From Saprospiraceae bacterium (GTDB lineage Bacteria > Bacteroidota > Bacteroidia > Chitinophagales > Saprospiraceae): a stretch of 60,876 nucleotides of DNA. The stretch covers positions 1 to 60,876 of the forward strand of contig JALHLK010000027.1 in NCBI GenBank assembly GCA_022844565.1. Reading direction: 5' to 3'. A program made the position numbers and the translations under genes. The notes beneath the pieces were generated by a model. It had not been told where the DNA came from. It searched no databases and worked only from the letters and a program-made list of their open reading frames with translations. Below, in pieces: positions 26,242 to 27,683 of this stretch; the stretch's first letter is position 1; every line of letters begins with the position of its first letter.

Positions 26242-26452
26242 TGATAAATAAATTTATCAATATTTGTAATAAATGATAAATATACTTATCAATATGAAGT
26301 ATAAATGATGATTATACGAATCAATGTTTACCACAAAGTGTTAAACCTGATTATCAAAAGATTCGATAAATGATATATAAAGTTATCATAAATGAATTTA
26401 AATGATAAGTAAAAAGATCAAAATAAATATAAAACGATAAGTATATTTATCA
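26242..26452. repeat. Array of seven 18-bp palindromes at ~32-bp spacing, upstream of a DUF4143 ATPase gene
   Basis: Seven units begin at 26242, 26274, 26306, 26339, 26371, 26403 and 26435, spaced 32, 32, 33, 32, 32 and 32 bases. The consensus is TGATAA-N6-TTATCA. The first (TGATAAATAAATTTATCA) is a perfect inverted repeat, the second (TGATAAATATACTTATCA) and last (CGATAAGTATATTTATCA) are close, and the third and fourth are the most worn. The 14-15 base spacers differ in sequence and tend to end in AAA. 32 bp is close to three DNA turns, so every unit faces the same side of the helix. The last unit lies in the -33 region of the downstream promoter. It looks like a cooperative operator array. 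It is too short-spaced and spacer-poor to be a CRISPR. Confidence 0.85.
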
Positions 26453-26459
26453 ATGTGTG

Positions 26460-26467
26460 TATCTTTG
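26460..26467 (+). promoter_or_regulatory. -7 element TATCTTTG of the second DUF4143 gene
   Basis: It fits TAnnTTTG and lies 8 bases after the last palindrome and 16 bases before the ATG at 26484. This rules out the longer frame beginning at 26457 as the normal start. Confidence 0.65.
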
Positions 26468-26483
26468 CAAAAAATATAAAATT

Positions 26484-27683
26484 ATGGAAGTTTTAAGGAC
26501 AGAGCACAACCAGGCCCTACAAAGACTTGGAGATGAGGCACTTTTCCAAAGAATAGTCATGGAAGAAATTGGTTGGGAAGAACGATTATTGTTTATAAAA
26601 GGAGCTAGGGGTATAGGCAAAACTACTTTGATACTCCAGCATATCATGACAAAATTTAAATTTGACGAAAGGGCGCTTTATGTATCGATGGATAATATTG
26701 CATTATCTAATAAAACATTGGTTGAAATAGCAACAGATCATTACAATCGTGGAGGCACTCATCTTTTTATCGACGAGATTCATAAGTATCAAAATTGGAG
26801 TTTGGAACTAAAGAACATTTATGACAAATTTAAAAAATTTCATGTAGTAGCATCAGGATCATCCATTCTTGAGCTCTACAAAGGTAATGCAGACTTAAGT
26901 AGGAGGGGTGTGACGCATGTACTTTATGGATTGTCACTAAGAGAATACGTAAATATCAGCACCAATCAGCATGTCAAAAAATATACTTTGGAAGAGATAT
27001 TAAAAGATCATGTTTCTATTGCAAATGATATACTAAAAAAGGTTAATCCTCTTAAATATTTCAATGCTTATCTTTCGCATGGTTATTATCCTTTCTACTT
27101 AGAAGGTACCAAATACTTTCATCAGAAGCTCAATACTGCGATTAATCAAATCATAGAAGTGGACATACCACGTATTTATAATATTGACAATTCTAATATC
27201 AGTAAAGTAAAAAAGTTGCTTTATCATATTGCCATTTCAGTACCTTTCCAGCCAAACTCTTCTAAACTTGCAGAAAGTTTGGATATCAGTAGGCAAACAC
27301 TGAATACCTATCTCAATTATTTGGAAGAAGGTCAGATATTGCAGTTGCTGTGGAATAGTCAAAAATCGTACAGTTTGATATCAAAACCGGATAAAATATA
27401 TTTGCAAAACACAAATCTTTGCTATTTGATACCAACTTCAAGTGCCAATGTGGGAAATCTTAGAGAAACATTTTTTATGAATCAAGTAAGTACACAGCAT
27501 AAAGTGAGCTCATCAGCAAAAGGAGATTTTTTGGTGGATGACAAATTTACTTTCGAAATAGGAGGGCAGAATAAAAGCTTCAAACAGATTGCTGATATGC
27601 CTGATAGTTATGTAGGAATGGACAATGAATTGATCGGTTCGGGGAATAGGATTCCGTTGTGGTTGTTTGGGTATTTGTATTGA
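26484..27683 (+). CDS. AAA ATPase with DUF4143 (second of two in the window)
   Basis: A protein of about 399 residues from the ATG at 26484 (MEVLRTEHNQALQ). Walker A is GARGIGKTT near residue 42, Walker B THLFIDEIHKYQNW near 92, with a sensor-like HVVASGSSILELY. A winged-helix-like segment follows, LAESLDISRQTLNTYLNYLEE, then the DUF4143 end with GDFLVDDKFTFEIGG. In the end domain the acidic D...E residues of a nuclease-like fold are partly present. It belongs to the same broad family as the gene at 10477 but the two are clearly diverged. Family function is not established. The palindrome array directly upstream, with its last unit in the promoter, suggests tight control, perhaps autoregulation through the winged helix. 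Confidence 0.88.
   Translation: MEVLRTEHNQALQRLGDEALFQRIVMEEIGWEERLLFIKGARGIGKTTLILQHIMTKFKFDERALYVSMDNIALSNKTLVEIATDHYNRGGTHLFIDEIHKYQNWSLELKNIYDKFKKFHVVASGSSILELYKGNADLSRRGVTHVLYGLSLREYVNISTNQHVKKYTLEEILKDHVSIANDILKKVNPLKYFNAYLSHGYYPFYLEGTKYFHQKLNTAINQIIEVDIPRIYNIDNSNISKVKKLLYHIAISVPFQPNSSKLAESLDISRQTLNTYLNYLEEGQILQLLWNSQKSYSLISKPDKIYLQNTNLCYLIPTSSANVGNLRETFFMNQVSTQHKVSSSAKGDFLVDDKFTFEIGGQNKSFKQIADMPDSYVGMDNELIGSGNRIPLWLFGYLY

Follow-up and report, generated by a model that had tools for sequence, protein, structure and literature searches.

In the window (the whole stretch of 60,876 nucleotides of Saprospiraceae DNA analyzed here), seven palindromes stand upstream of the gene of a 399-aa ATPase. 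This array very probably serves as a private operator that is bound by the product of the downstream gene and, judging from sequence comparisons, the ATPase probably represses its own promoter. The degree of confidence in the former statement applies to binding by the gene's own product; two of the alternatives weighed below, activation and an origin-like site, share this part, so the odds of the readings overlap. The elements concerned are the following, the palindromes being given with their agreement with TGATAA-N6-TTATCA.

26242–26259, no strand assigned: palindrome unit 1, 12 of 12 positions
26274–26291, no strand assigned: palindrome unit 2, 12 of 12 positions
26306–26323, no strand assigned: palindrome unit 3, 9 of 12 positions, the weakest
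26339–26356, no strand assigned: palindrome unit 4, 11 of 12 positions
26371–26388, no strand assigned: palindrome unit 5, 11 of 12 positions
26403–26420, no strand assigned: palindrome unit 6, 10 of 12 positions
26435–26452, no strand assigned: palindrome unit 7, 11 of 12 positions, lying over the -33 region with its centre 16 nt ahead of the -7 box
26460–26467, plus strand: Bacteroidota-type -7 promoter element, TATCTTTG, as read from the sequence
26484–27683, plus strand: AAA_14/DUF4143 ATPase gene, encoding 399 aa if read from the ATG

Two of the seven units are thus perfect, and agreement ranges from 9 to 12 of the 12 positions. Self-identity of the intergenic region exceeds 45% at a shift of 32 only (0.516; shifts 5 to 79 were tried). 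The palindrome-chain score of the array is 34.8. Dinucleotide shuffles stayed at or below 13.4 when 32/33 steps were required (2000 shuffles) and at or below 16.2 when any period of 20–59 was allowed (200 shuffles), and no window tile away from the array reached a score of 20 or more. The seven units proposed at these starting positions by an earlier, sequence-only reading of the window are thereby confirmed. The same reading had called the spacers unrelated, which holds only in part: the operator unit is about 20 bp long (wTGATAA...TTATCAw), and the bases flanking the palindromes are not wholly unrelated. The octamer at 26460–26467 resembles the Bacteroidota -7 consensus, TAnnTTTG. The first start codon in the ATPase frame is a GTG at 26457, which would overlap this box; translation presumably starts from the ATG at 26484.

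A scan of the regions upstream of homologs, as suggested along with the sequence-only reading, revealed that comparable arrays precede relatives of the gene. The pooled set comprised 208 non-redundant genes of the AAA_14/DUF4143 clade from Bacteroidota genome sets and four viral contigs, kept from 244 reading frames (others were dropped on length, upstream DNA, or as near-duplicates), and for each region the best self-shift period between 20 and 59 was determined. This period was 32 or 33 upstream of 138 of the 208 genes. The controls yielded 32 or 33 in 21 of 203 downstream regions, 12 of 208 shuffles, and 15 of 262 regions upstream of the other genes that these loci contain. The scan of genome contigs covered the best 80 of 576 relatives, all but two of which are Bacteroidota by record title, namely the Spirochaetaceae MAG L098 and the uncultured bacterium L110; here, 32 or 33 was the best period in 52 of 78 usable regions, 8 of 86 reading frames having been omitted as too short or with too little upstream DNA. 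Chance or neutral tandem duplication in AT-rich DNA might be invoked for the window array, as the intergenic region has a G+C content of only 20%. However, the array outscores every one of the 2000 shuffles (34.8; highest shuffle 13.4), and 138 of the 208 relatives keep this step although their sequences vary, which renders this origin hardly conceivable. A period of 29, which is no whole number of helical turns, was best in 12 of the 208 genes, with a sub-group consisting of L123, L132 (at 58), L137, L146, and L056. Strong repeats of 28, 21, and 56 bp, unrelated to the 32/33 rhythm, follow the ATPase gene in L052, L127, and L142, respectively.

Homologs of the window protein are patchily distributed: they were found in 25 of 150 genomes of the family (E ≤ 1e-40) and in 43 of 298 genomes of the order and 56 of 395 of the phylum (E ≤ 1e-60), these sets overlapping and including the source genome itself. 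The latter contains ten strong AAA_14/DUF4143 genes. Five of its arrays are clear, with steps of 32 or 33 bp and a different motif in each (L028, L029, L030, which is the window gene, L031, and L034); the array of L033 is weak (14.6 against a shuffle maximum of 13.6), and that of the close paralog L032 is doubtful. Among the 11 other AAA_14 genes of the genome (L035–L045), only L043 has a period of 32/33, with a score of 10.6 against a shuffle maximum of 10.4. The six-unit, 33-bp array upstream of L028 (G000:C7) is more regular than that of the window and consists of TTGACACTTTTTGATACA-like units that are not plainly palindromic by eye. Upstream of L026 (G000:C62), another DUF4143 paralog, two palindromes with the arms ATCGAAACT...AGTTTCGAT are distant and not phased, again by eye. 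A second DUF4143-family ATPase gene in the window (L027, 10477–11718, minus strand) has no evident upstream array, and a fragment with an internal stop in the same genome (L008, G000:C13:34777–35040) is akin to aa 312–398 of the window ATPase and is perhaps a decayed copy.

Conservation of the exact palindrome was considered and rejected. Among relatives for which a half-site was called, the nearest (L074, 59% identical) has TTGATG and the next (L155, 57%) TTGCTT, against ATGATA in the window. A confident half-site was called in 112 of the 208 genes, for which the 32/33 chain was also required to beat other spacings. Of these, 95 have T at position 2 and 99 have G at position 3, and positions 4–6 are variable, giving 54 distinct six-base half-sites; some are common to many genes (TTGCTT in 12), and further examples are TTGTTT, TTGCAC, and TTGACT. 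Gaps between sites are 32 or 33 nt in 171 of 216 cases, a figure that describes regularity and is no independent test, as the genes were preselected for such chains. Register with the promoter played no part in this selection. A TAnnTTTG box is present within the last 90 nt in 77 of the 112 half-site genes; of 75 sites before it, 42 have their centre 17–18 nt and 4 have it 16 nt upstream, and the site beyond it is centred exactly 15 nt downstream of its T in 45 of 60. The upstream and downstream figures are not independent, because both sum to the step. By this register the sites of the relatives overlap their own promoter and likely cover both the -33 region and the transcription start; at the window gene, unit 7 does lie over the -33 region, as had been proposed from the sequence.

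Binding of the gene's own product would also be compatible with an ATPase that activates the promoter, or that switches with its nucleotide state in a STAND-like manner. At the window gene the seven units all precede the -7 box, with none evident beyond it, and the ATPase has a weak similarity to nSTAND (E 5.3e-4, below the cut-off). The site that 45 of 60 relatives have centred 15 nt after the T of the box, over the likely transcription start, is better suited to blocking, however, and we regard activation or switching as rather unlikely.

The product of the downstream gene is a member of the AAA_14/DUF4143 ATPases, which presumably correspond to COG1373. Its recognizable segments are:

26601–26624, plus strand: Walker A motif GARGIGKT, aa 40–47, with G40, G45, and K46 invariant in 70 sequences
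26763–26777, plus strand: Walker B motif LFIDE, aa 94–98, with D97 and E98 invariant in 70 sequences
27258–27329, plus strand: helix-turn-helix segment, aa 259–282, with a weak HTH_11 match in the window protein (E 0.021)
27288–27317, plus strand: predicted recognition helix, aa 269–278, whose residues 269, 271, and 274 covary with the operator
27525–27575, plus strand: candidate PD-(D/E)XK-like stretch with D348, E358, and K364, in which ExGG...K replaces ExK

The AAA_14 domain (PF13173) is matched with an E-value of 1.7e-26 (93.1 bits; Pfam cut-off 27). DUF4143 (PF13635) reaches 25.5 bits in the window protein, under the cut-off of 28.1; with E ≤ 0.1 as the limit, it is recognized in 68 of 70 aligned members. 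No ParA family is among the 16 Pfam matches of the protein, which has AAA_14 instead, and among solved structures it has no convincing relative by sequence (best E 0.033). HTH_11 is recognized within that limit in 18 of the 70, with 8.6e-6 as the lowest E-value. In the C-terminal stretch E358 and K364 are invariant and D348 is nearly so in the 70 sequences; it might represent an altered PD-(D/E)XK site. Seven PADLOC models of PDC-S01 match the window ATPase (best E 1.4e-27, aa 32–309), as judged by E-values and not by PADLOC's own thresholds.

The strongest link between array and protein is the covariation of operator bases with the predicted recognition helix. Protein columns were compared with operator positions 4–6 in those 98 of the 112 half-site genes that have a TG or CG frame. 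The highest summed z-scores (mean 4.0, SD 3.9) belong to columns 269 (30.0), 274 (15.7), and 271 (15.6), all in this helix; the next, 125 (14.7) and 343 (14.4), are outside it. When the set was confined to 75 genes less than 60% identical, 269 (18.3) and 271 (13.1) still led among 352 columns, 274 (10.2) tied with 72 (10.3) and 125 (10.2), and column 205 was top for position 5. The high scores of columns 72, 125, 205, and 343 all lie outside the helix, and kinship contributes to the apparent covariation. Particular residues go with particular bases: H269 with A at position 5 (9/9), Y274 with T at position 4 (13/13), and V274 with C at position 4 (9/9). Residues 269/271/274 are S/Q/N with TGATA in the window and N/N/V with TGCTT in the relative L091.

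If pairs more than 50% identical outside the helix region are excluded, these three residues predict operator positions 4–7 in 64/57/50/56% of the 98 genes, compared with 39/53/34/40% for the rest of the protein and 27/41/28/41% for random partners; for position 7, the most successful of 200 sets of six randomly drawn columns attained 60%. Without the exclusion of close pairs the rest of the protein (73/70/59/72%) performs as well as the three residues (75/69/61/65%), because kinship then suffices. Among pairs 50–60% identical elsewhere, at least two of the three residues are shared by 47 of 61 with an equal triplet, against 76 of 363 with an unequal one; for pairs 60–80% identical the numbers are 25 of 26 and 4 of 22, the equal-triplet ones also being more alike overall (69% vs. 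62%), and in neither comparison are the pairs independent. The covariation between operator and recognition helix makes the ATPase itself the most likely reader of its array.

This bears on the unlinked repressor already raised as an alternative by the sequence-only reading, to which a global regulator may be added: the array would be occupied by such a protein, of which the ATPase would be no more than a target. Separate regulators with repeated sites do exist in defense islands, for example RptR (PMC12255303). Moreover, the exact palindrome TGATAA-N6-TTATCA is present eight times in the source genome, twice in the array and six times as single sites elsewhere; with at most one mismatch it occurs 98 times, against 58 for a control. 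Tandem pairs of TGAT-N10-ATCA with a 32-bp step and at most one mismatch, however, have five placements in the 5.59-Mb genome, all within 26242–26452, and the window motif thus forms no other such pair (tolerating three mismatches raises the number of placements to 86, where the reversed-pattern control has 24). The genome-wide scattering that had been named as evidence against a local function was accordingly not observed: at this step and mismatch limit the motif forms no second array in the genome, although six exact single sites lie elsewhere. Further arguments against an unlinked regulator are the 54 distinct half-sites in 112 genes, the covariation of operator bases with the ATPase's own predicted recognition helix, and the lack of a conserved neighbor gene across 74 loci of relatives, where the commonest neighbor family is found in eight and, by eye from one sequence, looks like another DUF4143 ATPase. 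Since motifs differ from one gene to the next in step with the protein, this explanation is disfavored, and we deem it highly improbable. The proposal that the ATPase itself binds the operator through its winged helix has, on the other hand, gained support from the recurrence of the arrays, the variation of motifs from gene to gene, and the recognition-helix covariation.

Outside the closer relatives, twelve more distant DUF4143 genes (29–43% identical to the paralog L028) were inspected, and 32 or 33 was the best period in 11 of these, including four (L280, L281, L285, and L289) whose scores are not or barely above those of shuffles. In this set L287 was omitted as too short, three loci repeat genes of the source genome, and a second frame in L284 (period 43) was not counted. 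Plasmid records numbered 98 (59, 10, and 29), from which 16 loci of eight phyla were picked for taxon spread; 32 or 33 was best in 12 and 34 in two (Aliarcobacter), and 10 of the 16 were clearly above ten shuffles. Extension of the rhythm to the whole DUF4143 family had to be rejected, as 32/33 was found in only 3 of the 30 top-scoring canonical DUF4143 genes (L314–L343). A single long palindrome of 31–41 bp, counted if it reached the maximum of 50 shuffles, lies at most 80 nt upstream of the start codon in 22 of these 30. Because of these two counts, a palindromic operator of its own seems common in the DUF4143 family, and the 32/33 rhythm seems to belong to some of its clades. In L325, L331, and L336, DUF4143 genes as well, 22-bp repeats (about two turns) precede the start.

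The plasmid-borne relatives, the PD-(D/E)XK-like region of the ATPase, and the iteron-like look of the array could be taken to mean that the latter mainly serves another activity of the protein, such as nuclease loading, partition, replication, or homing, as its target or as an origin-like site, with regulation as a by-product. The sites are in register with the promoter, however, most of the copies examined stem from genome collections rather than from plasmid or viral records, and a single scan of 2.9 million viral contigs yielded only four loci, for which reason a phage origin was rejected as well. The gene beside the array is an AAA_14/DUF4143 gene, and its relatives have no conserved partner in the 74 loci. 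We consider a target or origin-like role improbable.

According to the reading that we prefer, a private operator for autorepression, an ATPase dimer would bind directly to each 20-bp palindrome in the cell and read it through two winged helices. Most of the clade would share the outer TG/CA frame, with residues 269, 271, and 274 reading the bases inside it. Neighboring dimers would sit 32–33 bp or about three helical turns apart and so could touch, which might make their binding cooperative or, as the sequence-only reading suggested, build up a nucleoprotein filament. The row of dimers would cover the promoter, that is, the -33 region in the window and the -33 region plus the likely transcription start in many relatives, and the gene would be repressed by the protein it encodes. 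This ATPase/nuclease-like protein, which may be costly, could thus be kept at a low and buffered level, possibly under control of its ATP state and until some trigger releases the repression. The private operator may also insulate paralogs from each other; none of 15 same-genome pairs share a triplet, but since 360 of all 6216 pairs (5.8%) do, about 0.9 would be expected, and 15 pairs are too few to count as evidence.

A more far-reaching version is offered tentatively, as a possibility that we would not bet on. Across the DUF4143/PDC-S01 proteins, a phased, nucleotide-gated row with one dimer per palindrome, three turns apart, would sit on the protein's own promoter. The three-residue code would allow new addresses to arise fast, so that many paralogs and newcomers would not interfere with one another, and once infection or transfer removed the row, a burst of the effector would follow. 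Should the private operator prove true, it would be a first handle on the PDC-S01/DUF4143 family that shows the DNA read by the protein. It would also provide a ready biochemical substrate, predict three-residue specificity swaps, and permit promoter-reporter assays to seek the releasing signal. A 2026 article presents PDC-S01, a PADLOC phage defense candidate, as a fusion of an ATPase with a PD-(D/E)XK member and ranks it fourth in abundance among defenses across prokaryotes, most PDCs still awaiting validation (PMC12988326). This abundance is why its operator matters, the window ATPase belonging to the same protein family by profile match. The words operator, autoregulat-, and promoter are absent from the main text of that article.

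Defense genes can be under the control of a regulator with palindromic sites, as in the case of C proteins, CapW, and BrxR, where the regulator is a separate protein and not the ATPase itself. Our literature search, which did not extend to preprints or to most subscription papers, found no work that combines DUF4143 with palindromes or repeats and no description of these operators, although one may exist elsewhere. The 9-kDa regulator RptR is a repressor of the promoter from which it is itself expressed. Its sites, three direct repeats of 9 bp with a conserved 6-bp palindrome, overlap the -10 box of a defense locus (PMC12255303). It differs from the proposed system in being a separate regulator and in having repeats that do not vary from gene to gene. 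The statement of the sequence-only reading that no such system has been described was nevertheless too strong. RepA of the repABC plasmids of Rhizobium leguminosarum TA1, a ParA-family ATPase, autorepresses its own operon and, with ADP, binds specifically to its own operators with imperfect palindromes, each RepA having its own within one genome (PMC4492784). This protein is a partition ATPase of another family encoded in an operon with repB and repC, and no phased 32–33 bp array figures in the abstract of that article. By analogy, RepA of repABC plasmids appears to be the closest precedent for the autorepression proposed here.
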